This document shows positions 3,045 through 52,510 of a stretch of DNA of 64,000 bases, piece after piece (position 1 is the stretch's first letter; the number at the start of each line of letters is the position of its first letter). Where the stretch lies: NCBI GenBank assembly GCA_029204225.1, contig CM055096.1, positions 32,240,305 to 32,304,304 on the forward strand. The letters are read 5' to 3'. The translations under genes and the position numbers were made by a program. The stretch is from Diphasiastrum complanatum. Its lineage: Eukaryota > Streptophyta > Lycopodiopsida > Lycopodiales > Lycopodiaceae. Under the pieces are notes generated by a model. That model was not told where the DNA came from and did not search any database. It saw only the letters and a program-made list of their open reading frames with translations.

Positions 3045-4543
3045 CTGCTCTTTCAAAGCAGTAAAACAGACACAAGTTCGCCCTTTCTCAAAAATAGTGA
3101 AATAGTTAAGTTTAACACACAGCTAACTTGCTTCCCAGAATGTGATACTGATCCTTATAGAACATGGTTTTACAATCTAACAGTCCCTTTGCTGCTACAG
3201 GTCTATTGCTACAACCGACCAAAGACAAATCACCTTGAATATACCTTCCTTTGTAAAGGAAAGCAGAATCAGAATTTCTAGACTTTTTTTTCCAACATCT
3301 ACAACAAGATAGACCGGCCATCTTCATAGCAGCTTGAATGAAAAATCTGGAAAGCTCTCGAAGGATGTGTACTTGCTTGAGTGGAGTGCGAGTGCCTAGA
3401 AGAGCAAGAAAAATTCTTTGAATGTAGGTAAATCTTTCTATTGCGGCAATCACATCCGGGCACTCGGTATGGACTGTTAACCATAGCGCGTCAAATTTTG
3501 CCTGTCTTTCATAATAGCAAGACAATTTCATTACATGGACAAACAGCGAAACAATCAAAGATGTCGCTATCTCCCTTGATGTTGATCCTTTCTGTATCAT
3601 GTCTACATTTTTCTAGGTGTGGAGCTGCTTCCATGAGGTATTCTGCTAACTGCTGAGGAAAGCGAGTAGTACACCGACCACGCGTTCTCTGTTTCTGAGA
3701 GTCTTTTCAGAAGCATTGAAATCTTACAGAGTTCAAGAAGCTGCTATTGTGTGTCGCACTGTCCTAAAAAGCAGGAGTCCAAGGAGTTTGGAGACTTGTC
3801 GGTCGTACTACAGAATTAAAAAAGGCTTTGATCGAAGTTTTTTTTGTCAGCTACTTGTAACATGTGCTGACCTGCAGGTAGCAGCAAGTTGCAACAGACA
3901 GATGTTTAGGGATGTAAATGTTATTTCCTCTTTGAAAAAACTGAGCGTAAATGTTTCGCGGTTTTAACATATCAACAGTTTTCTTGGCAAGAGGGCGGAT
4001 ATTCACTATATAATGTGAGACGACGGAATGCAATAAATGGAAACATGAATACCATGGGAAAATGCGAACAGATTGAGGCATCCAATTCAAGATGTCAGCG
4101 GAACCAGATTACACACGTAAAGTTGCATTAAACACAAAAGGAAGATCCTAGGGCAATAATGACAACAATCATAGGTATGTAAAACAGTAGAAACCATCAA
4201 TAATAATGGCTGGTAAATTACTGCAAATATACGCAAATCTGAGCAGAAAATTCTACGACCAAAGAAAGCAGAAAAAGAATTGTATCTATCATTCATGTAG
4301 TAGAGAATAATAGCACTGGGAAAACGACAAGCAAGAACCTCACAAAATCTTGCACTTAAGATTTACCAGCAATCCTTGATCGGGAGTCAAGGCTGCTTAT
4401 TAAGCTAAAACTGGAAGATGAAACCCCCTCACATCATAAGATGAAGACATTGAAGTTGAGAACTCAAATCCTTGCACGCACGATAATGAATGACAAATTA
4501 CCGAACAAAATGCAGCAAAACTTGAGAATTATAACAAACTTAC
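3045..4543 (-). other. Probable 5'-leader intron of the POLAR-like gene
   Basis: A consensus gtaagt donor lies on the minus strand at 4543, downstream of a TATA-like box and a GA-rich leader. A pyrimidine-rich acceptor lies just before the ATG at 3033. Splicing between them would give a 5'-UTR intron of about 1.5 kb. A 162-codon open frame (3600-3112) lies inside it; I do not recognise it. It could be an alternative 5' exon or chance. Confidence 0.45.
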
Positions 4544-4641
4544 GAGCATCAGAGGGATTATGCAGAATTAAGATCCAGAGACAAGCAAATCTAGCGATGC
4601 CGCTGCCTCCTCCCTGCCTTCTCCCCTTCCTCTCCCTCTCC

Positions 4642-4687
<46 letters not shown>

Positions 4688-6966: not shown

Positions 6967-7670
6967 ACACTAGTTGTGAGTGCCCGTCATTGACGAGCAA
7001 TGGCGGCCGATCTAGGTGACGGCCGATGATTTGGAAATTCAGTATGTCATTGACAGACGATAAATTTTTGATCTAGGTGGCGGTCGATGATCTAGTGAAA
7101 TGCGTGGCCTAAAGGACCACAAATGGCCTAAATGCGGTCCTTATGCGTCCTAAATATGGTCATTGTGGTAAGGTTGTGGTTCGTTTCCTTCATTCAAACC
7201 GTATGTAGCCGTAGGCGAGACCCTTGTAGTGCAGTTTGCGGTTCGTACACTTCGTTCAAAATGTAAGCAAGACTTTATGGTGCAGTTGAGGTTCGTTCAC
7301 TTCGTTCAAAGCATAGGCAAGACTTTACGTTGAGCCTTTGTATATGACCGCAATCGTTGACTTTGCGGTCCTTTACGGTGAAAATGCGATGAAATGCGAT
7401 CCTATGTAGTCAAAATGGGGTCTATTGTAGTGAAATGCGTGGGCTAAGGGACCACAAATGGCCTAAATTTGGTCCCTATGTGGCCTAAATGCAAAGGAGA
7501 GGAGGCTTGAAGGGAGGGGCTTCATAAAACCACAAACGACCTCCTTTGCAGTTGTTTGGGACCGCATACGACCACATAGGACCACAAAGGAGGGGAGGGC
7601 TGAAGGGAGGGGTTGCATAGGACCAGAAAAGGACCGCAAACGACTGCAAACGACCTACAAGAGACTTGAA
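6967..7670. repeat. Internally repetitive non-coding block
   Basis: Several words recur. AAATGCGTGG(C/G)CTAA with GGACCACAAATGGCCTAAAT occurs at about 7101 and 7433. The phrase TTCGTTCACTTCGTTCAAA recurs around 7250-7310. GGGAGGGGCTTCATA and GGGAGGGGTTGCATA occur near 7515 and 7602. No long open frame is present. It looks like the non-coding part of a repeat element; I cannot name the family. Confidence 0.6.
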
Positions 7671-7679
7671 TTATGGCTC

Positions 7680-8648
7680 TTCAGCAACAGTATCGATCTG
7701 ATAAAAGAAGACAAACAATGCTATTTTCAGAATTTGACATGACCGATCTGGGCGAAGCTCATTTGTGCCTTGGTATTCAAATCCACAGAGACAGAAAATA
7801 GAAGTTGGTCTACATTACTCAACAGAAGTACATCTACAATATATTAGTCAGATATAATCTGATTAATTGCAAGTTAGCTCTCTGGAACCAAGTCTCAAAT
7901 TGTCAAAGGACCAACGTCCTCAAACAATTCATGAGAAACAGCAGATGCGTGAGTATCCTTACCATTCTATTATAGGATCTCTTATGTATGCAATGATATG
8001 TACCAGGCCAGACATAGCTTTTTTAGTCAGTTCTCTCAGTCAGTTTATGACCAACCCTGGTGTAACACATTGGAAGGCTCTTATCAGAGTCATGAGATAT
8101 CTTCGAGCTACTATGGACTTTTGCATTAGTTATGAAGCAGTCGGGAATGACAAACTCAATTTACTCAGTGGCTACACAGATGCAAGTTGGACAGGAGATG
8201 TAGACACTCGTAAACCACCTATGGATTTACATTCTTTCTCAACAATGGTCCTATTTCCTGGAACAGTCGCAAACAATCTTCGATAGCTCTATCTTCCACT
8301 GAATTAGAGTATATCGCAGCCTCTCAAGCTACAAAGAAAGTAGTTTGGTTGAGAAACTTACTCTCAGATATCGATTTGAATCAATATGCTCTAACGTTAT
8401 TATTTTGTGATAATCAAAGTGCCATTGTCTTATCAACCAACCCTAGATTTCATTCTAGGAGTAAGCAAATTGAACTTAAGCATCACTATGTCAGAAGCAA
8501 AGTTCTCAACGAAGAGGTCAAATTGCATTACTGTAGAACGCAAGATATGACAACATATATTTTTACCAAAGCATTAAGCTTGAAAGCACATAGAAGGTTT
8601 TGTGTTGAACTAAGTTTGAAGGTCAAGGCATTCAAGGAGTCAAATTAA
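7680..8648 (+). pseudogene. Ty1/copia RT (3' part) - RNase H fragment
   Basis: The piece begins inside the copia reverse transcriptase (FDMTDLGEAHLCLGIQI) and runs through the connection domain (YHSIIGSLMYAMICTRPDIA) into RNase H (YTDASWTGD, ALSSTE near 8300, FCDNQSA, FTKAL). An in-frame TAG follows HRDRK near 7800, and the frame shifts near 8240-8290, so it cannot encode a protein. Gag, protease, integrase and the RT catalytic core are missing. It is followed at once by a purine tract and an LTR. Confidence 0.9.
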
Positions 8649-12720: not shown

Positions 12721-14200
12721 TTCAAACTACTGTCAACAGTTTTGTATGTTTCTAGACATTTGTTTTGGGACTTTGACCTAAAAAAGACTAATCTCTTTTG
12801 GTGCTTTTTAATGGTCCTAGTTTTAGGCCAAAATCATGGTTTTTTTTAAGGATTCTCTAATTTGCAATTAAAAAAAAATGTTAAAAAGTGTCAATTTCAA
12901 TGAAGCACTACAAGTTTTTTTGTGCAGATTTTATAAAACCATCATCATTACATACTACATAACATTTCAAGACAACACATAATTTTTGGAAGTCCAAGCA
13001 CCATTAAAACACAAAAGGGCTTAAATTATATTATATATATAGTTTTTTCAAAGTACATTTTCTAAGGAATTTTTACTGATGATTCTCAATTCAGAACTTG
13101 AAATGTTTTGAACACTCGTTTTCAGTCGATGAGGTGAAAGGCCCGTCTTCTTCATCAGAGTCAATTGGCATATCGTCTTCAGAATTCGCGTCCAATATTG
13201 ATAAAAAACCTTGTAAGTCAGATTTTCTCTATTGTTGATGAGTTGATGACAATGGTTGTTTCATTAATCCAAGTCGTTCATTCAGTATGGCTATAGTTGA
13301 CTTTTTTAGATGATTGGTCATTGTCAACTCAAAATAAAAGGCCAAAACATCTACATCTTGTACATTCAAATCATCAATCCTCAGTTGATATTTTGGCAAT
13401 CAGTTTCTCTTGCCCTTGGATTGACTTGTAACAATTCAAGATCGTACCTTCCCAAAAAAACATTTGTTGAAGTGGTGCGCAACCAATGGATACGTAGTAC
13501 TTTTGTCTAATTTTTGTTTTGAATGAAACCAAGTACTTTGGCAATCCAAAATGCATGTCCTTCATTGTTTTCTGAAGCTAGAAGAGCAACAAGGCTTCCA
13601 ATTTAGATTCGTGACATCTATAGTTGCGTGAACAGGTTCAGCAGGTGTGGGAATATCTGCTTAAACATTAGGTTGTTGTTGATTTGCCTCTGCTGGTTCA
13701 ATAGTTTTAGAAGAATAAAGATTCTCAACAAATATAGCTCTTTTGGATTTGACCAGATTCTGGACTTGAGAAGTGGACCTTTTTCAAATATGTGAAAAAC
13801 TTGCACGTCAAACATGAATTGATTGATGTGGATCTCTAGATTTGCTTGAATCCGTGACTGAGTGAAATGAATCCTATGAATCATCAATTACTAACTCTTC
13901 TAATCTGTCAAAACAATCTTGCAATGTTATTTCTCTAACATCTGAATATGAAGATGAAGGACTCAAATTTGTAACAAGTTGTGTCAAATGTGTCATTTTC
14001 TGAAAAGTAGTCAAATGACAAATTTCAGATAATGTTGTTGAAGGGGAGACACAAAGGGTATTAGGATGAGAACCTGAAGGAGTGACTTCATAATAGTAAT
14101 CTTCATTAGGAATATCAGAGGAGAATGACTCAGATGTGGCTACGTACTGAGTTACAACAACAGGAATAGAAGAACAAGAACTGCTTGCCATTGCAAAAAT
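12721..14200. other. Unassigned; possible minus-strand decayed gene
   Basis: A minus-strand open frame at 14191-13874 starts MASSSCSSIPVVV and is Ser/Thr-rich (105 codons). Further minus-strand pieces, interrupted by stops, continue to about 13080 and end in an acidic stretch, DANSEDDMPIDSDEEDGPF. I do not recognise it. It lies immediately beside the palindromic-motif region and could belong to the same element. Confidence 0.3.
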
Positions 14201-14221: not shown

Positions 14222-15993
14222 CTATGCCAAGCATAGACGAAAATAAAAATATAATCGTAAAAATAACACAACAAACAAAAAGTTTACATTATGCTATGCT
14301 AGTCATAGAAAGAGTTAAACAGACTATGCCAACACCAATAGAAATACATACTGAAATTCGCAAAGAGCGCATTTAATATAAATTCAACAATTATAACAAA
14401 GATAATTTTCAACTGCAAAAGATCGCTCTTAAATGCTATAAGATTAGGGTTAGATTTTCCTTCTAATAGTAGGGTTAGAGTTGGTACACTTGACACGGGT
14501 TCATTCTAATAGTTGGTCGTCAAAAAACTTGTTTGTGGTCCATGAAAAAGAATGTTGGTCGCGAAGTAAAATGGGGGCCCATTAAAGTTTGAAGGTCAAT
14601 TTTTTTTTACTTAAGGACCCCAAGAGTAAAACATGACACCTCATTGTGAATTTGCGTTCAGGGTGGTTGGTAGAGTAGAATCATTCACTTGATGACCTTC
14701 TATAATCTCGCGCATAGCTATTGACAATTCATTTTTTGTCCAAGTAATATCTGTAAGTTTTTCTTTATGCTCAACATAGTATTGTGTCGTGATAATCTTA
14801 AAAAAAATATTTAATTTATTTTAAACTCTATGATGGGCATAGAAAATTCTTTATTTTGCTACTATTGTCTATGCTCAGCATAGAAACCTTTCTTCCTCGC
14901 TCCCAAGTCTTATGTTGAGCATAACACCTCTTCAATCATTAAGTGGCTTTGTTATGTTCAGCATAAGATATTCTCTAAATTTCTCTGGAGTTCTATGTTG
15001 AGCATAGTGTGCTATCTAACTCCACGCGGATGTGTTATGCTCAGCAAAGCAACTCCTCTTTCACTCGTCCGAATGTTATGCTAAGTATAGATCGTCGACT
15101 AGCGAAAGAGAAGATCTTATGCTCAACATAACATATTTGCGTGGAGTTAGATAGCACACTATGCTCAGCATAGAACTCCGAAAAAATTTAGAAAATATCT
15201 TATGTTGAGCATAACAAAGTCACTTAACGATTGAAGAGGTGTTATACTCAGCATAAGACTTGGGAGCAAGGAAGAAAGGTTTCTATGCTGAGCATAGGCA
15301 ATAGTAATAAAATAAAAGAATTTTCTATGCTTAGCAAGGAAAATAGTTTTTTTTTTTCAACTTGGACCTAAAAATGTTTAAAAAACCTAAAAATCCAAAT
15401 AAAATTATTGATTTTTAATGAAAATTTTGGGTAAATTTATGTCATTCATACTTGTATTTTAAATGATTTCTTTGTTTAAATTCTAATAAATTGTCAATAA
15501 TAACTGTATTTTGCAGACTTAGAGTAAAAATTTTGAGAAATTAAGGATGTCAAAAATTGTCTTTTGGATGCTAGACCGGGCTCAGAATGTTCCTCTAAAG
15601 GACAAAAATAAATACATGTTTTAGTTTACAAGAGGTGTAAATATCAGTAGAATGAATGAACTATTTATCCATGTTGTTGAGAAGAGCGAAAGAGGTGAAG
15701 GTCCATTTTAAGTACAAGGTAGAGTCCTTATTGATCAGTCCAATGATGATGCGGAGCAAGAGAGCTTGGTCATTGTTCTTGTGAAAGAACTTGACAAAAG
15801 TCATTCGATATTTATTTTGGATGAGGGAATACTTAAGATTCGACTTTGCAAAGACGAAGCCATTAAAATGTATTTTGACAAAGCCCTTATGACATTGGTA
15901 TGAACACATTAAAAAGAATAATTATATTATTTACAATGAATTGGGTTTAATATTATTTGGTATTATAATAAATCCGATCTATGCTGAGCATAG
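14222..15993. repeat. Region marked by repeated CTATGCTGAGCATAG palindromes
   Basis: Variants of the 15-bp palindrome occur at 14222, 14294 and 14765, then 13 times in the phased array 14828-15339, and once more, perfect, at 15979. The outermost copies may mark the ends of one element of about 1.8 kb. No transposase was recognised between them. A short open frame on the minus strand (15909-15661) is unassigned. Confidence 0.6.
14828..15339. repeat. Phased palindromic array inside a large inverted repeat
   Basis: Thirteen 15-bp motifs (consensus CTATGCTGAGCATAG or TTATGTTGAGCATAA) start at 14828, 14869, 14910, 14952, 14993, 15035, 15076, 15117, 15159, 15200, 15242, 15283 and 15325. Steps are 41 or 42 bp, mean 41.4. 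The 26-27-bp segments between them differ from one another, but are mirrored about a dyad near 15083: the segment after motif 1 is the reverse complement of the one before motif 13, and so on. The whole is an inverted repeat with arms of about 250 bp and virtually no loop. Confidence 0.95.
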
Positions 15994-16425
15994 ATTACTT
16001 TATCAATACTTGAAGTTCTCTAACATTATTCTTTTGTTTTCTGTCATGTAGAGCCTCAAACAATGTTTAATAAACGTGCTCTGTGTTGTTGTTGAGGGGA
16101 AGGATCCAGTCTTTTCTTCTCATTGTACAAAGTCAATGGCAGTGGCACGTAGCAATATAGCTTCTTCTACTGTCCCATCCCACACATATGTTACTGGTAA
16201 GTTTGCACCCTCCGAATCAGCACTCTTTTCCAACGACTGTACATATTGAATCCGCAACCGACAAACCAAAGTCCAAAAATAAATCCATGGCCAAGTGGCC
16301 TAAAGAAGTTCCTTCTGAAGAAAACAAAAAAAAGTCTAAAGAGACCACTTTAGTTTTGCCTGGAGCCACTATCCAACCGTTGAAGGACTATTTGAGATCT
16401 CTAAAATCAGAGATCAAATTCATAA
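15340..16425. other. No gene recognised
   Basis: AT-rich sequence. A plus-strand open frame begins near 16188, but its first 80 codons have no recognisable similarity; copia homology begins only at about 16426. Confidence 0.5.
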
Positions 16426-23549: not shown

Positions 23550-25571
23550 AAATTATCAAGTTATGCTGAGAGACGTTGAGAATTTTAGAAGAGAAAGCTT
23601 GAGTGCTATTGCTGAAGGTGAAGTTCTCAAGAGAAAATTAAATATAAGAAAACACAAACGACTTCCAAAAAAAGACATAGATGATTTGTCTTCAAGAAGT
23701 GGAAACAAGAAGAAAAAGATTCAAGCATTCAAGTAAGTATTAATTAAAAGAGCAAATGACACGCTTGCTAAGTTTTTATGTGCTTGTTTTTCTAATGCTT
23801 GCTAATTTTATTATTCATTATGTCTTGCAGATCATCTTTGGTGGCGAGAGAATATTTTAAAGATTCTACGAGTATTGGAAAATCTTTGGGTTCCATATTG
23901 TCATCAAAAACTACAAAAGAAATGTTAAAGAATTGTCATTATGACAGGATTAAGAATGATATTTCTGCAGTGATTATAAAGAGCATTCAACATGTCTTGG
24001 ATGCAAGAGTTATCCAGGGAGCATGTGATGATTCAGGAATTAGTCGTAAAGCATATACTCTATTGTTTAAAATTGTACATGAAGCCTTTGCACATGTGAA
24101 AATTTGAAAGCTACCTCTTCCTCGCCCATTTAGAGTTAAAAAAAAACCAGATATTAATGAGAGTATGACTATGCTTATAGGTGAACCATTTCATATCAAG
24201 AAATTGTATACATGTTAGAGTGGAACATTGGAATACAATGAGTCCAACAATTTATTTTTGGATATTAACAAAGTAGTGACATAAATGATTAAATATTACA
24301 AAATATTTGAAAGAGATGTCCAAGGAAAATTAATATTGGTTATTAAACTTGATGAGTCTGAAATTGTTAAGGGACAAAAATTGGAACGGGTAAGTATGAG
24401 CAGAGCATTGAACAATACTGAAAACAATGCAGATGATTCATAATTTAGTGTTCAATCAGAGAATGAAATATGGTGGTTAGCAACATTTCAGGTAAATTTC
24501 AATTTTACTTATTATTGTATTTTATCACCTAAGTTTGCTAATGTCAATATTCGTAACTTCGTATGTGTTTATTATTTATCAGGTTTAAAATATATGTGCC
24601 AAACTATGGCACGTTTCAAATTTTATGGCATCTTGCAGGTGATTTAAAGACACTGAAATGTATGTATAATATTTCGCATGCGACAAATACTAAACATCCT
24701 TGTTTGTATTGTATGAAGAATTGTAAAAACTTGAATTTGACAAGATCAAGAGTTGGTCCAACAAGAGATCAAGAAAATCCGAACTTTAGACCTGTGTTGG
24801 CAATTCCATTGATCAGTGTTCACATATGCACATTGCATGCTGAGATACGAATTATTGAGAAATTGATTTACAATCATATTTTCCATTTTTGGAGTACCAA
24901 ACCTGAATCGGCCTCTAAAATTGGAATTGAGAGATTAGAACAAGTACTTTCAAAAGCAGGTTTGCACAAGGGGAATGTAAAAATAGAAAAAAGTGAAAAA
25001 CTATAAGGTATATCAGGGAACGTTCCAAATAAGCCATCTGTTGGAGGTGCAAAAGCTAGAAGGTTTTTATCCAATAACATTGGAAAGTCTTCTACCGTGA
25101 CATACAATGTTTGGAAAGATGTTGTTGCAGCATCAAAAGATTTTGAAGATAGGGGCAACACAAGATTAGAAAAAACTGCAATATGGCAAAATTTCGACAA
25201 TTTGATTGACATGTTGTGAAAAAAAAAGTTATCTAAAATCGACATTGCAAATTTACAAAAATATTGTGAGAAATTTGTCAAATCGGTAGCAGAGTGTTGG
25301 GGAGAAGATCATGTTACACACTATATGGTAATTCAATATTTATTTTTGTGCAAAAATTGTTTAACGTCATATATTTGATTTCTGATATATGTATTTTACT
25401 GGTCGCAACATTTTCTATTACATCACACCACATTTTTTTGCAAAAGAATATGGAAGTATGAGCATATGGTCTTCTCAAGGTATGGAAAAATCGCATTGGC
25501 AAGCAAGAGGAGCTTTTCATCGAGCAACCAACCATGGAGAAGTTGGCAACAAAATTTTGTGAACTTGTCAA
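23550..25571 (+). pseudogene. SQGMEKSHW-family gene, copy 1 (spliced, decayed)
   Basis: Exons with GT-AG borders can be traced. About 23550-23730 is basic, with a donor gtaagta and an acceptor at 23830 that keeps the frame. The next runs 23831-24489 and ends NEIWWLATFQ then gtaaat. A third runs from about 24585 (YVPNYGTF, WHLAGDLKTLK, KHPCLYC, GGAKARRF) to WGEDHVTHYM near 25325. A last piece reads IWSSQGMEKSHW near 25470 and stops at 25561. Stops at about 24105, 24220, 24440, 25006 and 25217 show it is dead. Copy 2 at 32.0-33.4 kb has the same motifs and the same intron positions after WWLA-F and after THYM. I faintly recall multicopy cnidarian proteins with QGMEKSHYQA-like motifs. A mobile-element origin is inferred. 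Confidence 0.6.
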
Positions 25572-25919
25572 AAACCAGAAATTCTGTTATTTTATTTTAT
25601 TTTTTGCTTCTTTTTTATTCAAATATTCTCTGTAATTCAATCTGAATAGCTAGCATTGTAGAGCATTAAAAAGGCTTTCTAGTCATAATTGTTTTTGGAT
25701 TCCGTTCAGTATTGAGCAAGATACAGATTTTTTAAGTTGGCCACAAAATTCTGTGAACTTGTCAAAAACCAGAAACTTCTACATTTTTTATTTTTCTGTC
25801 TTGTTTGATTCATTTTTACGATAGCTAGAGTTGTAGAGCATTGAAAGGGCTTTCTTGAAATATAATTTTTTTCTCATTTCATTAAGTGTTGAGGAAGTTA
25901 CAAATTTTTGACAATGTCA
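25553..25919. repeat. Tandem duplication, about 185-bp units
   Basis: Units start at 25553 and 25744 with ACAAAATT(T/C)TGTGAACTTGTC and share CAAAAACCAGAAA, TTGTAGAGCATT(A/G)AAA and GGCTTTCT. A third, partial start lies near 25920. The first unit overlaps the last exon of the SQGMEKSHW gene. Confidence 0.8.
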
Positions 25920-31817: not shown

Positions 31818-32040
31818 TTGACACTTTGTATTTTGTTATAATACAATCAATACATTTACATTGAGTATTTCTCCTCTCTTGTTCAATGAATTTGCAAAGC
31901 AATTCTAAACATGTCATGATTTGATGACAATGATGATCTTCTATCATCTAATTTTCTCTTCCTGTATAAACTTGCATGCTTTTCTAAACTTGAACTCTGT
32001 GGTAGAACCACTGAAACAATTGACAAATGTAGTTCCGTTT
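31818..32040. other. Spacer, nothing recognised
   Basis: AT-rich sequence between the plus-strand unknown gene and the end of SQGMEKSHW copy 2. Confidence 0.4.
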
Positions 32041-33420
32041 TTCATTGTGTTTAGGGTTTAGGATGTGCCAGTGTGACTTCTCCATCCCTTGTGATGACCA
32101 TACACTCAAGCTTCCACACGTGCTTGCAAAAAATGCTATATGATCTCTTACTATGTGCTGCATATGTCAAAATCATAATGTTAGTCTTATGTTTGGATCT
32201 AAATATATATGAAAAATTGAAAGCATCTTGAAAATTTTATACTAACCATGTAATGAGTGATATGATCTTCTCCCCATGCTTTTGATACTGCATTAACAAA
32301 CTCGACACAAGTCCTTTGGACAGCTTTCTTATCAATATCAGAGTATTTTTCTTTTCTTAAAATAGCAATCATACTATCAAGCTTCTTCCATACATCAACT
32401 TTTAGTACTCTGGTTTTGCCGTCTTTCTCGAAGTCCTGAGTGGCAACAAAAAAATCCTGTCCAAACTGAGTGTTGAATATTAGAAGCCTTACTAGTATGA
32501 TTTGATAGGAAACAACGTGCTTTTGCTCCTCCTATGCTTGGCTTAGTTGGCATGTTCCCATTCTTTCCTGAAAGCTTTTCATCTTTTTGAGTTTTGACAT
32601 GTCACCTGCTAAGTGCCATTCAACATTGAAGTCTCCAACTCTTGGAACATTGAGCAGTCCTCCATCCATATGGTCCTTGATGATCCTAGGATAAGATGTC
32701 CTTGAGAATATCCATGATAATATATCATGATCCTCCTTTAGAACCTGTCCAAAAAATTAATCAGACTTAGTTTACAATGAATTAATACTATTCAATGAAT
32801 GTAATGTAGTATTGAGGCTAGTTACCTAAAACGCTGCCAACCACCATATATCATTTTCTGACTGGACACTAAATCTAAAATCTTCTTGGTTCTCTGTTTG
32901 TGATAGAGCACCATTCATGAGAGTTATACTAACCCTCTCCATCTTCTGTCCTTTCACAATTTCTGACTCAATTAACTTAAGTACTATGATTATTTTGTCA
33001 TTTACCTTTTCATAGGTTATATCATAGAATGTGACAATGTATCTCAGCAAGTAATTTAGATCAACAAATAAGTTGTTTGATGAATTATAGAATACCAATC
33101 TTCCTTCAGTTTCATACACCTCCTCAATATGAAATGGAGTTCCAGTGATCTTATACATACCTATGTTTAATGTATCCCTCTCTTTCTTCAAGTGATATCT
33201 CCTAGGGATTGGGACTTTTCTAATTTGAACATGTTTAAAAGATTCTCTAATTAGTGTAAATATTGTTGCATATGCTTCCCTGCTTATACCTGCAAAATCA
33301 CAAGCACCTTGAACTATAGTCTTATCTAGATTTTTTGAATGTCCACCATCAAAGACTCTGCTATTTTACACTTTATATTTGAACTCCTATTGTTCATCAT
33401 GATACGCTCAGTCTTAGTCA
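32041..33420 (-). pseudogene. SQGMEKSHW-family gene, copy 2 (spliced, decayed)
   Basis: The minus strand from about 33360 reads VQGACDFAGISREAYA, KVPIPRRYHLKK, GTPFHIEEVYE, LIESEIVKGQKMERVS and SENDIWWLAAF to a splice site near 32826. After an intron it continues with VLKEDHDILSWIF, VPRVGDFNVEWHLAGDMSK, then frame-broken sequence matching GGAKARCFLSNH, AWGEDHITHYM and, after another intron (acceptor acatatgcag), SVWSSQGMEKSHW near 32070. The KHPCLYC segment of copy 1 is deleted. It is in inverted orientation to copy 1, about 6.5 kb away. Confidence 0.6.
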
Positions 33421-39606: not shown

Positions 39607-41421
39607 TCACCATTTGTTGAGCTTTTTAAATTCAATCCGTTGCAGGATATTCCTGATAGAAATATCGAACGCATCCTCATATTCTGAAAGCTTTGACCCC
39701 GGTTCTGCATAGAGGAGTCCAGGCACAACATCATAGATAATTTTCTTCCGCATCTTCTCTATCACCCTTACGGGTATCTTCTGGAGTACTTCGATAACAT
39801 TGATCCGATCATCTTTCAAGGCCTTACTGGGAATGAAAATAGAGTAGCTAGTTTCGTTTATAGGCAGATGCCAAGGATATTGCAAATAAGCCGTGAAAGG
39901 ATCAAACAGAACGGGAATGCAACCGGCTACTAAAGAATCAAAGACCGATCGTCGCGTAGGGCTGTCTCCTGGAGGCTGCAGGCAAAAATGAGAATGGAGA
40001 AAGAGAGACATGGTGGATTCTGGACGAAAGCATACGCCTCCACCGCAATCTAGAAGATGACAGATAGCTGGATACTGTTGACACTGCTGAATTAACCTGT
40101 TTCGAACATTGTGCGGTTGATTAGGTCTAGGCTGCCCAGCAAAGCTTACTAGATTGCCTCGTTGAGCTGTGTGGATGTGTTCCTGCCAAGAACGAATAGC
40201 AGTGTCTGACTTGGGGTGGAAAAACGTGGGATGCGGAACGCCAATGTCATTTTCATGCCACGCGTGCCTTTCTATGAGAAGCTTTAACACGTTCTGCATT
40301 TGAGGATGTGATAAGAAATTGCTACCCCAAGCTTTGGGATCATTATCAGCTCTCCGAAAATCATAAGAAATCTTTCCAAGAGCCATAACGTGATCATGAC
40401 CGTGATGCCTCCTCCACCAGCTTTGCTCTTCAAGCCAAATTTCAAGCTCCGAACCAAGTTTATCTTTTCTATCGTTCGTTATATTTTCTGCAAAATGCCA
40501 TCTCATAACGTCCAGGCCTCCGTAATAAGGGATGTAGAAAACCACGGCTTTTTCAGGGTCATTTGTAAGGCAGGGGTGCTTCAAGACACGAGCATGGAAA
40601 ACTAGTTCTAGTGCATATTGATTGGTGTCATACCATTGTCCCTCAGGAAGAAGAACGCTTTCATCACGGTTTATCGCAGGCGTTCCTAGTCCAAAGTTAG
40701 CAAACGAATCGCACATGTTGAGCCATGGAATGAGAGAGTCGCATTGCCTCACAAGATCGACATTGAATTTCGGCGGCAAATTGTAAACATAAATTGCTTT
40801 TCTTTCGCAAGAACTAGCTCCTTCAGACAGCTTAACGGAATCTTGTCCTTCCTCTTGCATCGTTTTGAAGATCCGAAAAAGTTCCTCCATAGCTTCTACA
40901 TCATCTCTTGTATCGTACTGTTCAATTGCCGTAGAAGAATTATTGTCCAAACCTACTTGAACTTCATCTTCCCAAAGAATTTCAGGATGAGATCCATTTT
41001 TAAAGATCGAAGGGATTCTCGCCGATGCACCAGCAGATGCATTATCATGTGCATGCAATGACCTTTCACTTTCGAGCTGGTTCTCCTTTTCTTCTGATTG
41101 TTTCGACGCGTATTCACGATCCGTTTTCGTAGATTTTAGCATGTTTCTGCCAACAAGGCTTTTTGTGTTGGCCTGTCTATCCTCCCCAAGGACATCACCT
41201 CCACGAGAATATTGGACCGGGTAAACAATCTTTACTCCTGGTAGCATGGTGGTGATTTCCTTCTGCAGATTCTCAGAATTCACCTCCCCGCTGTGGGATC
41301 GTTTTATAATCATGGTTACACATCCATTTTCTTGAAGATCGTTGTGGTAGAAAGATATGTACCATAAAAAAACTACTGACATTAGAAGTACTGGAGGAAG
41401 TAGCAATCTCCGATTGACCAT
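39607..41421 (-). CDS. GT47 xyloglucan galactosyltransferase-like (MUR3/KATAMARI1 group)
   Basis: A single uninterrupted frame of 604 codons. Residues about 5-25 are a hydrophobic signal anchor, giving a type II Golgi protein. A variable, charged stem follows to about residue 205. The exostosin-type GT47 domain runs from AIYVYNLPPKFN (about 209-220) through WYDTNQYALELVFH, the H-W-GRDH-like HHGHDHVMALG, HPTFFHPKS (about 397) and the signature FCLQPPGDSPTRRSVFDS (about 479-496) with AGCIPVLFDPF. The length and lack of introns fit the plant clade that adds galactose to xyloglucan side chains in the Golgi. Which side-chain position it uses cannot be told. The start is ATG 41421, immediately before the anchor; the frame stays open 62 codons further upstream without another ATG. 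It looks intact and is the best-supported host gene here. Confidence 0.9.
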   Translation of the reverse strand: MVNRRLLLPPVLLMSVVFLWYISFYHNDLQENGCVTMIIKRSHSGEVNSENLQKEITTMLPGVKIVYPVQYSRGGDVLGEDRQANTKSLVGRNMLKSTKTDREYASKQSEEKENQLESERSLHAHDNASAGASARIPSIFKNGSHPEILWEDEVQVGLDNNSSTAIEQYDTRDDVEAMEELFRIFKTMQEEGQDSVKLSEGASSCERKAIYVYNLPPKFNVDLVRQCDSLIPWLNMCDSFANFGLGTPAINRDESVLLPEGQWYDTNQYALELVFHARVLKHPCLTNDPEKAVVFYIPYYGGLDVMRWHFAENITNDRKDKLGSELEIWLEEQSWWRRHHGHDHVMALGKISYDFRRADNDPKAWGSNFLSHPQMQNVLKLLIERHAWHENDIGVPHPTFFHPKSDTAIRSWQEHIHTAQRGNLVSFAGQPRPNQPHNVRNRLIQQCQQYPAICHLLDCGGGVCFRPESTMSLFLHSHFCLQPPGDSPTRRSVFDSLVAGCIPVLFDPFTAYLQYPWHLPINETSYSIFIPSKALKDDRINVIEVLQKIPVRVIEKMRKKIIYDVVPGLLYAEPGSKLSEYEDAFDISIRNILQRIEFKKLNKW

Positions 41422-41607
41422 CGTCACCAAGCCGGACCAGCTACAGCACAAGCAAAGGTCTTTGTGATAAACGCTTCCAGAATACCATTCACTGTCGTCC
41501 TTGTTGCTTCTCCTCCAGTGCCATAGCAGCTCAACTTCATGGAACAGGTCCCTCAAAGATGAAAGATCTTGGAATTCGGAAATGGCGCGATTTTCTTTCT
41601 CTGTTGA

Positions 41608-50690: not shown

Positions 50691-52477
50691 ATGAAGCATA
50701 TGATGACTGCCTTGTACAATGGTGAACTACTTAATAGTGGTGAAATGATTATGTTTTTCAAAAGAAAAGAAAGATATAAGAAAGACTTAAAAGCTTCACC
50801 TATTTTGACAAAATGTCAAAAACAACCAATTACAAGAGAGGAGATTCAAAAGGTACGATGCATTATTTGTTGTTCATCTTGTTGCTTGCAGAAATTAAAC
50901 AACAAAGAGATCGAGGAGAAGAGATCCAATTTCTTTTTGCAAAGTAAAGATGAAAAGAATTACTATTTGTGTGCCACAGTGAGACCCGACAATTATTCGT
51001 ATGCATAATTTTTAAATGCAACAAAGGTTTGTCAAAAAGCCTACAAAGTTGTTCATGCATGCCCTCAAAGAATGCACGCACGACTTCAAAAAGATCCAAC
51101 ATTGTGAGGATCGTTGCAGGGTAGAACTGTGTCTCTGAATGCTTTGAATGCAACGGATTGGCTAAAGCATTTTGTGGATGTGCATGGAGAAAAGTTACCA
51201 AATTCATTATATTTTCACCTGCCAGATAATTTTACAAAATTGGAGATATTTTTGATGTACAAGGAGTTCACTAAGACAAAAAATGTTGCCTATTTAAGTT
51301 ACTTGTATTTTCTTAGGATTTGGAAGAGAGATTTTGGTTTGGTGAAGATTCCTAAAAAATCATGAATGACAGTTTGTTCGACATGCGAGTTGTTAAAATC
51401 TGCCAAACAACTAGCAAAGACCAATGATGAGAAAGGTAAAAATTAATTAGCTTTCAGTATTTAAAAACTATATTTTTTTGTTAATTTTTTAGTTTTCAAA
51501 TTATTAATGTTATGATATTATCATAATTTTATTGAATATTTTAATCGTTACATTTTGTAGTGGATGCTGCAAAAGTGCTTCAAGCGCACAAAGATCAACA
51601 AACAATGGAAAGACAAAAATTAACGAAACATCAAAAGAAATGCTTGAAAATTTCACAAAAGTATCTGGGCCTTGTCATCGATGGCATGGATCAGAAGAAA
51701 ACGATGTTACTTCATTTCGTTAGAGTGCCAAAAAATTTGAACGAGGCAGATTTTATTTCAAGTTCATCTCGTTGGAGCACTTGTGTTTAATGACACATTG
51801 GAGTCGAAAGTGTTTTTCAATTATCCCAATGTTCGAAATGATTCACCATTATATAAAAGATAATTTGCGAATTTGGTGATAATCTTCCAGAAATATTGTA
51901 TTTGCAACTGGACAACACCGCTAGGAAAAATAAAAATCAAACTGTACTAGCTTACTTGTCCATGTTGGTAGAGAAAAAAGTTTTCAAAAAAATAAAAGTA
52001 AGATTTTTGTTGGTGGGTCATACCCATGATCAAATTGATCAGATGTTTAGTTGTTTTTCCAAAAGACTAAGACACAAGAAGACATTTTCTTTACCAGTGC
52101 TTCAGAGCATTGTTGAAGAATCATATGTGCCAAAGCCAAATGTGTCGTTAATCAGGCATACATATGATTTTCGTGAATATATTAAGGCGTCCAATGAAAC
52201 AAGTCATCAATGTGTTGCTACCATTCATGATATTAGCTTTCAACATCAGTTCAAAATCAAATGTAATGAAACTAGCATCACATTGCTATGGGACAAACAA
52301 TTTTCAAGTTTAGTTTCATGGTTTTTGTTCAATATACCATCTGGTCAAATCAAGTTTGTTGCATTGTCTCCCTTGAAGTCCATTCTAGAAGAACAAAAAG
52401 CACAAAGAGAGCATCGTGAGGTTGACCCATTTGCCTCGTTAAATTTTTTGGATTCAAGTATTGAAGAAACTTATTAA
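50691..52477 (+). pseudogene. DUF7869-like gene, decayed
   Basis: Ordered pieces on the plus strand. 50870-50990 reads CCLQKLNNKEIEEKRSNFF. 51020-51365 reads VCQKAYKVVHA, then WLKHFVDVHGEKLPNS and SYLYFLRIWKRDFG. Next is VCSTCELLKSAKQ to a donor at about 51436. An acceptor at about 51560 (cattttgtag) leads to LVIDGMDQKKTMLLHF. The last piece, 51896-52477, reads YLQLDNTARKNKN and LVGHTHDQIDQMFS. The D-G-M-D-Q, Q-L-D-N and GHTH-x-x-ID-Q-x-F series is what I recall of proteins named DUF7869, multicopy in many eukaryotes; the spaced acidic residues suggest a DDE-type enzyme (inference). A TGA at about 51109, a stop at 51363 and frameshifts near 51760 and 51870 disable it. Confidence 0.65.
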
Positions 52478-52510
52478 TTTTTTGATGAGTTTGATCAACA
52501 TTGGTGGATG

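Follow-up and report, generated by a model that had tools for sequence, protein, structure and literature searches.

What are thirteen short palindromes, set at regular steps and mirrored about a central point, doing in the genome of the lycopod Diphasiastrum complanatum? They lie in a stretch of 64,000 nucleotides (hereafter the window, that is, the whole stretch of DNA that was analysed). An earlier reading of its letters, made without database searches (the sequence-only reading), had taken them for a repeat-spacer array folded on itself within a transposable element, and had offered protein binding or the production of a hairpin RNA as possible roles. The analysis shows the array to be the noncoding centre of a DNA transposon family that is abundant and, for the most part, decayed.

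The array (14828-15339, no strand assigned) consists of 13 palindromes related to CTATGCTNAGCATAG, with starts running from 14828 to 15325 inside an inverted repeat of about 500 bp. Successive starts are 41, 41, 42, 41, 42, 41, 41, 42, 41, 42, 41 and 42 bp apart, and each start and step is as it was first written down. The two arms (14843-15069 and 15097-15323) are 87% complementary, with 27 nt between them, and the mirror axis passes through the seventh, central motif (15076-15090), which contains the dyad proposed at about 15083. With up to three mismatches allowed, the window holds 34 strand-matches to the motif versus 1.53 (sd 1.17) in 100 shuffles. Pairing between the arms of each palindrome is 7/7 in three sites, 6/7 in six and 5/7 in four, and the window palindromes are therefore partly worn. 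Folded as a single strand, the array is much more stable than its shuffles (z -29.6), and it matches no known RNA family or tRNA. An extension of the inverted repeat beyond the array into its flanks is unsupported (score 27.8 vs 28.7 +/- 3.4 in 100 shuffles).

The spacers had been described as different from each other and mirrored across the dyad. The mirroring stands, but the unrelatedness does not: within one arm of the window, spacers carry a faint common ancestry (mean score 11.27 vs 9.16 +/- 0.42, with none of 1,000 shuffles as high), and at the level of sequence comparison they retain traces of a common tandem unit. The idea of a repeat-spacer array falls with this, and a CRISPR-like array (unrelated spacers, identical repeats) is not supported, as the spacers are related and the repeats vary. 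Between the two window arms the motifs are not better kept than the spacers (17 mismatches in 98 positions vs 24 in 158).

The genome searched comprises 1.74 Gb in 5,176 contigs. Allowing at most one mismatch, the 15-bp motif has 5,679 matches when one strand is read and 5,662 when the other is; as the motif is palindromic, most of these are presumably shared sites. The reversed motif, used as a control, has 10 and 8. When the 512-bp array is the query, at least 89 matches are returned, many of them one place on both strands, and a near-whole array (at least about 480 of 512 bases) occurs at 25 places including the window's, a count that may contain duplicate contigs given a few pairs with equal scores. 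Phased clusters are thus found in many copies with the same period, and an assembly artefact or a single copy can be rejected: the motif matches number in the thousands, the array recurs and its consensus keeps the steps. A phased motif pair gave 0 matches in the viral and 0 in the prokaryote collections searched, and five spellings of the motif were not found in print in open-access PMC.

For a closer view, 20 motif-rich regions were fetched from contig C1 (20 of the 22 with at least two exact motifs among the first 100 places listed, which span its first 34.9 Mb). One multi-kilobase family accounts for 18 of them by DNA similarity; loci L010 and L014 fall outside it. Some loci were joined into longer element copies: E23 is L030+L023+L029 (one contig stretch), E09 is L031+L009 reversed, E27 is L032+L027 reversed and E16 is L016+L033, while any other E number stands for the one locus with that L number, oriented like the window.

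Breakpoints common to separate insertions place the ends of the element at AACAYGATGAC and GTCATCRTGTT. These terminal inverted repeats of 11 bp are imperfect, with 10 of 11 positions paired in the best copies and fewer in E11. The left end, with up to three mismatches, has 772 matches in the genome and the right end, as an exact gapped pattern, has 44 (controls 0 and 0). Five of eight copies tested carry exact 4-bp A/T-rich target-site duplications (AATA, AAAT, AATA, TATA and TTAA), a sixth has ATCT/ATTT, and none is present in a copy on C5 or in E23, a copy located within a TC repeat; by chance, random 4-mers of three tested loci agree 0.75% of the time. Many copies, common ends and duplications at the target site thus bear out the transposable element that had been proposed. 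Its size does not: four complete copies measure 5,967 to 8,545 bp (6.0-8.5 kb), and an element of about 1.8 kb is rejected. The array centre lies at 0.40-0.47 of their length. Foldback elements are also built of long inverted repeats made of subrepeats, which form their ends; here the inverted repeats are central in all four complete copies.

Four further end pairs are spaced 1,488, 2,819, 8,259 and 9,044 bp. The two short ones (C5:69073713-69075200, 1.5 kb, and C7:53782887-53785705, 2.8 kb) are likely to be short non-autonomous derivatives. Among copies chosen by the left end alone, neither L059 nor L060 has a full array: the former, a divergent relative, carries six irregular motifs, and the latter is unmatched in the element centre, with three motifs in the gene B part and one elsewhere. 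Right ends for these two were not found in the stretches fetched, which is why they are not among the eight copies tested for duplications.

The window copy is itself a worn one. Its left end and the 3' part of gene A occupy 12747-13609 (minus strand), with the terminal 8 bp or so degenerate; homology runs from about 12755, and the breakpoint is common to six other copies (L009 6817, L011 1262, L016 457, L017 1662, L018 2126 and E23 2955). The left end is worn at about 12747, the middle of gene A is lost, and similarity to the element stops at a Ty1/copia fragment at about 16425. Ty1/copia pieces are also present in the window and, with an exostosin-type gene, give it the look of plant DNA.

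Two divergent genes flank the array. Gene A encodes a DUF7869 protein whose fold is RNase-H/DDD transposase-like in a structure model. In the window its 5' part (13611-14191, minus strand) is decayed, with an open reading frame at 13874-14191 (MASSSC...) and without the DUF7869 middle. A detached piece at 50756-52510 (plus strand, thus opposite to the main copy; DUF7869 domain at 51857-52477) matches the part of gene A missing at 13.2-13.6 kb, and could be the product of a 37-kb inversion or another copy of this or a related element. The 5' reading frame of gene A, used as a query, has no homologue at E <= 0.01; no relatives of gene A or B were found in viral contigs, and 'DUF7869' as a word was not found in the open-access literature searched. 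In one gene A relative (P0006), the C-terminus (residues ~490-600) is matched by Foldseek, at prob 0.99 and E 0.025-0.055, to structures of EBS and DNMT1, in regions that we take to be BAH domains. A chromatin-reading tail on this transposase-like protein is possible from such modelled structures.

Gene B, on the strand opposite gene A, consists in other copies of a long N-terminal part followed by an N6/N4 DNA methylase domain. The Pfam model PF01555 matches above its curated cut-off in L027 (E 1.8e-12) and L009 (E 4.3e-9), and below it in L012 (E 0.088). The latter locus also has, at 7415-8569, a PIF1-helicase reading frame where the 3' part of gene A is expected, perhaps a nested Helitron. 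In the window, exon 1 (15547-15897, plus strand, limits set by eye) begins MSKIVFWMLDRAQNVPLKDKNKYMF..., contains two in-frame stops and has counterparts in L028, L023 and L024. Intron 1 (15898-16051, plus strand, GT...AG by eye) is followed by the start of exon 2 (16052-16424, plus strand), where similarity ends at the Ty1/copia fragment; a search of the window did not turn up the methylase half. The middle of gene B shows a ParB-like pattern by eye only: searches of Pfam, NCBIfam, PHROGs, PDB, plasmid and phage collections found no ParB match there, and the structure model of a relative was unusable (pLDDT 40). Four among the phage methylases nearest to the methylase end of gene B, when scanned against Pfam, have methylase domains and no ParB, and three of these four give no alignment to the gene B middle. 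A comparable layout is that of the partition site sopC of plasmid F, which loads ParB on palindromes carried by tandem repeats of about 43 bp. That site serves bacterial plasmid segregation and has direct repeats, whereas the repeats here are mirrored and ParB is unproven.

Motifs also occur outside the array. The lone ones first reported at 14222, 14294, 14765 and 15979 are all present, the last as an exact motif (15979-15993) inside gene B intron 1. The palindrome at 14222-14236 stands 31 bp upstream of the gene A ATG (32 bp in E23 and 28 bp in E16). The next (14294-14308) is 72 bp from it, and pairs 71 or 72 bp apart are seen again in L036, L043-L046 and L048. The third (14765-14779) lies 63 bp before the array, a step found in 9 of 12 window-type copies. 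The intronic motif also occurs in E23 (7867) and E27 (4701), and, judged by position, in E11 (4935) and E16 (5031). With at most one deviation, E23 has 17 motifs and none of them is in exons (read by eye): one is that upstream of gene A, 12 are intergenic, one is in intron 1 of gene B and three are in a later intron. The window repeats this layout outside the array, with the motifs at 14222 and 15979.

These positions bear on whether the palindromes are transposase-binding sites for transposition itself, acting in synapsis or end recognition. Many transposons carry multiple sites for their own transposase and the modelled fold of gene A is transposase-like, but the sites are intronic or central (40-47% of the length in four complete copies) and away from the ends. 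In addition, end pairs recognised by their end sequences lie only 1.5 and 2.8 kb apart. We regard this explanation as quite improbable.

The design of the array becomes clearer when copies are compared. A consensus was drawn from the 20 loci of the array search, leaving out seven opposite-strand duplicates, L039 (a near twin of L038) and L052 (partial). In the resulting 11 window-type copies the consensus steps are an exact mirror (42,41,42,41,42,41|41,42,41,42,41,42), and 11 of the 13 motifs fit the degenerate motif exactly, while the other two each differ from it at a single base. Mirror symmetry holds at 464 of 513 consensus positions (90.4%) and at 83-89.5% in single copies, which points to an ancestor more symmetric than the present decayed copies. 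A second main group has typical steps of 84,42,41,54,40,41,42,41,40,54,41 and is mirror-symmetric over most of its length. Across 16 copies the main cluster holds 6 to 15 motifs.

With motifs masked, spacers cannot be aligned between the two groups (scores 15-28), in contrast to arrays within a group (54-590) and to opposite arms of a single array (100-439). E26 gives weak scores in both of the latter comparisons, and in E15 and E26 the self-mirroring covers fewer than 100 positions. Arm identity within the 11 arrays compared ranges from 84 to 98.6%. The arms of E12 and E16 are 98.6% and 97.7% alike within each copy, and the two copies are 93-94% alike (a difference of 6-7%), whereas E18, E23 and E24 have arms 84-85% alike and are 93-96% alike to each other. 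Arms are sometimes closer than copies; mirror symmetry has therefore been re-established in some lineages, but not of late in others. In the former, the two arms of the inverted repeat co-evolve around a motif that does not change.

Could all of this be an inert, satellite-like expansion with a chance inverted duplication and no function? The spacers of one arm do share ancestry as in a tandem repeat, and after insertion motifs and spacers decay similarly (3.6-8.2% and 3.6-12.9% of positions changed relative to the 11-copy consensus). Such equal decay is as expected of dead copies, and the case for constraint consequently rests on the comparison between groups. There, mirror, motif and step are common to two groups whose spacers cannot be aligned, and the consensus motifs are near perfect, which makes a functionless array very improbable. 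The array is real, genome-wide, structured and kept up across the split of the two element groups.

Spacing adds to this picture. The 36 stretches examined (L009-L033, which include five flanks of other stretches, plus 11 of the 20 array-search loci) give 354 motif steps between 20 and 160 bp. Of these, 302 fall in near whole-turn classes: 233 at 40-42, 30 at 53-55, 9 at 63, 12 at 72-73 and 18 at 84-85 bp, or about 4, 5, 6, 7 and 8 helical turns. The spacing of nearly four turns noticed in the window is thus the commonest. Among the remaining 52 steps, 28 bp occurs eight times (L010 has seven, L014 one), and 44, 47 or 50 bp a few times. Helical phasing is an imperfect test here: the best-fit period is 10.7 bp over all steps but 10.15 bp for steps of at least 50 bp, and L010 and L014 do not fit. 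Since the copies are related by descent, the spacing supports, without proving, selection for one helix face.

The motifs also carry a mark of their past. Their sixth base is a C, which in some sites has decayed to T. With both strands read, T occupies it in 104 of 265 CTG contexts versus 27 of 465 others (CTC 13/279, CTA 7/86, CTT 7/100). The CTG excess is seen in 28 of the 31 loci with enough sites, one locus showing the opposite and two being equal. In plants, CHG-methylated cytosines decay from C to T in this way, and it follows that the arrays have probably been targets of host silencing.

Silencing could also be the very purpose of the structure, if read-through of the hairpin gave a long double-stranded RNA that triggers or decoys small-RNA silencing. 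Arms 84-98.6% alike in 11 arrays and homogenised in some copies, a very stable fold and the CHG-decay signature are all consistent with such an RNA. Yet the element would thereby silence its own promoters; moreover, motif phasing need not be fixed in a hairpin, the mean step of 41.4-41.5 bp is below 2 x 21, and E15 and E26 hardly mirror themselves. On balance, we consider a hairpin function improbable.

A comparison comes from the VANDAL/VANC anti-silencing transposons of Arabidopsis. In the published passages on VANC21, its motif lies mainly in noncoding regions and forms tandem repeats, upstream and within introns, that differ from copy to copy (PMC5735166), and RNA-directed DNA methylation (RdDM) is described as targeting the noncoding regions of VANDAL elements (PMC10398659). 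The family described here resembles VANDAL/VANC in its dense short motif in the noncoding parts of one family, both upstream and in introns, and in tandem repeats that change fast between related copies (PMC5735166). It differs in that the VANC21 motif is 9 bp long and in one orientation (PMC5735166), whereas ours is a 15-bp palindrome mirrored about a central dyad, and in its near whole-turn phasing, 4-bp duplications and DNA methylase gene. VANDAL elements are characterised by a VANC protein and a MULE-type transposase; gene A is a DUF7869 protein.

The methylase has a parallel in Ectocarpus. According to the sections of the report on Sola1-1_Ec32, a gene combining ParB and methyltransferase (N4C/N6A-type) domains lies opposite the transposase, and its authors suggest that proteins of this sort may attach to, and modify, the transposon that encodes them (PMC12477816). 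Our element likewise has a DNA methyltransferase gene of this type opposite its transposase-like gene A, but gene B has no database match to the reported ParB domain, and the brown-algal element is 21.5 kb long, with no palindrome array mentioned in those sections (PMC12477816), versus 6-8.5 kb in four complete copies here. The Sola superfamily, in the descriptions consulted, has 4-bp duplications, a DDD transposase, ends from 11 bp up and mostly 2-9 kb of length, and is known in the moss Physcomitrella (PMC10741241, PMC9033089). On that published description, the 4-bp duplications in five of eight copies and the 11-bp terminal repeats are Sola-like.

Taken together, dense noncoding palindromes, a fixed motif among fast-changing spacers, divergent promoters and a methylase gene fit self-recognition of the VANC kind. 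Our preferred reading, to which we give about an even chance, is that the array is a binding platform and two-way promoter by which the transposon recognizes itself, much as in VANC/VANDAL. The multi-site protein-binding array first suggested is thus held as the best reading, with a putative binding protein. The palindromes would bind a dimeric element-encoded protein, most likely the gene B product, and near whole-turn spacing would set many dimers on one DNA face, with the dyad symmetry serving both divergent promoters alike. Dense binding may mark the DNA as self, and the bound protein would bring the methylase, and perhaps the transposase, to the array. Binding would keep both promoters open against host silencing, as VANC does on VANDAL motif arrays, and episodic copying of one arm onto the other would keep the arms alike.

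Against this stands the view that the array is an ordinary divergent promoter: a transcription factor of the host would bind the palindromes, and the element would simply have accumulated many such sites. The array does lie between divergent start codons, and the same palindrome in two loci of other repeats, L010 and L014, makes a host binding factor possible; the second of these lies beside a different transposon-like family. However, the motif is concentrated in one element family (18 of the 20 motif-rich regions fetched), and a host promoter leaves the mirrored spacers and the intronic motifs unexplained. We consider it unlikely, though to be taken seriously. A bolder form of self-recognition, which we would put forward only tentatively and with more doubt than belief, is that the symmetric, helically phased palindromes load the element's own methylase, which would write a bacterial-type base mark (4mC or 6mA) on the transposon DNA and so let it escape host silencing, and that other transposon families of this genome have acquired the palindrome and share the protection.

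The array is a transposon control region, a variant not found in the literature searched, where no paper came nearer than those cited above, and not a new kind of system. Within the open-access literature searched, it would be the first candidate site read by a transposon methyltransferase-type protein. It therefore offers, in a land plant, a concrete and testable cis-element for transposon DNA methylase accessory genes, whose purpose has so far been guessed. From the mirror array one would expect a binding protein that acts as a dimer, a two-way promoter that is symmetric, and a base modification that long reads could reveal.

The two loci outside the family each have their own setting. In L010 (3814-4633), groups of palindromes at 28-bp steps are embedded in a tandem repeat of greater length, whose units are about 80% alike and in which no similarity to the main element family was found. 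In L014, palindromes at 4031-4162 with 26-32-bp steps lie beside the exons of the different transposon-like family. Its gene (4125-4673) resembles, with kinship judged by eye, two decayed copies of a transposon-like gene (IQGACD.SGIS...) in the window, at 23796-25642 (plus strand) and 31987-33365 (minus strand). The window also contains a single-ORF exostosin GT47 gene (39607-41607, minus strand, E 9.5e-73), which is probably a host gene.
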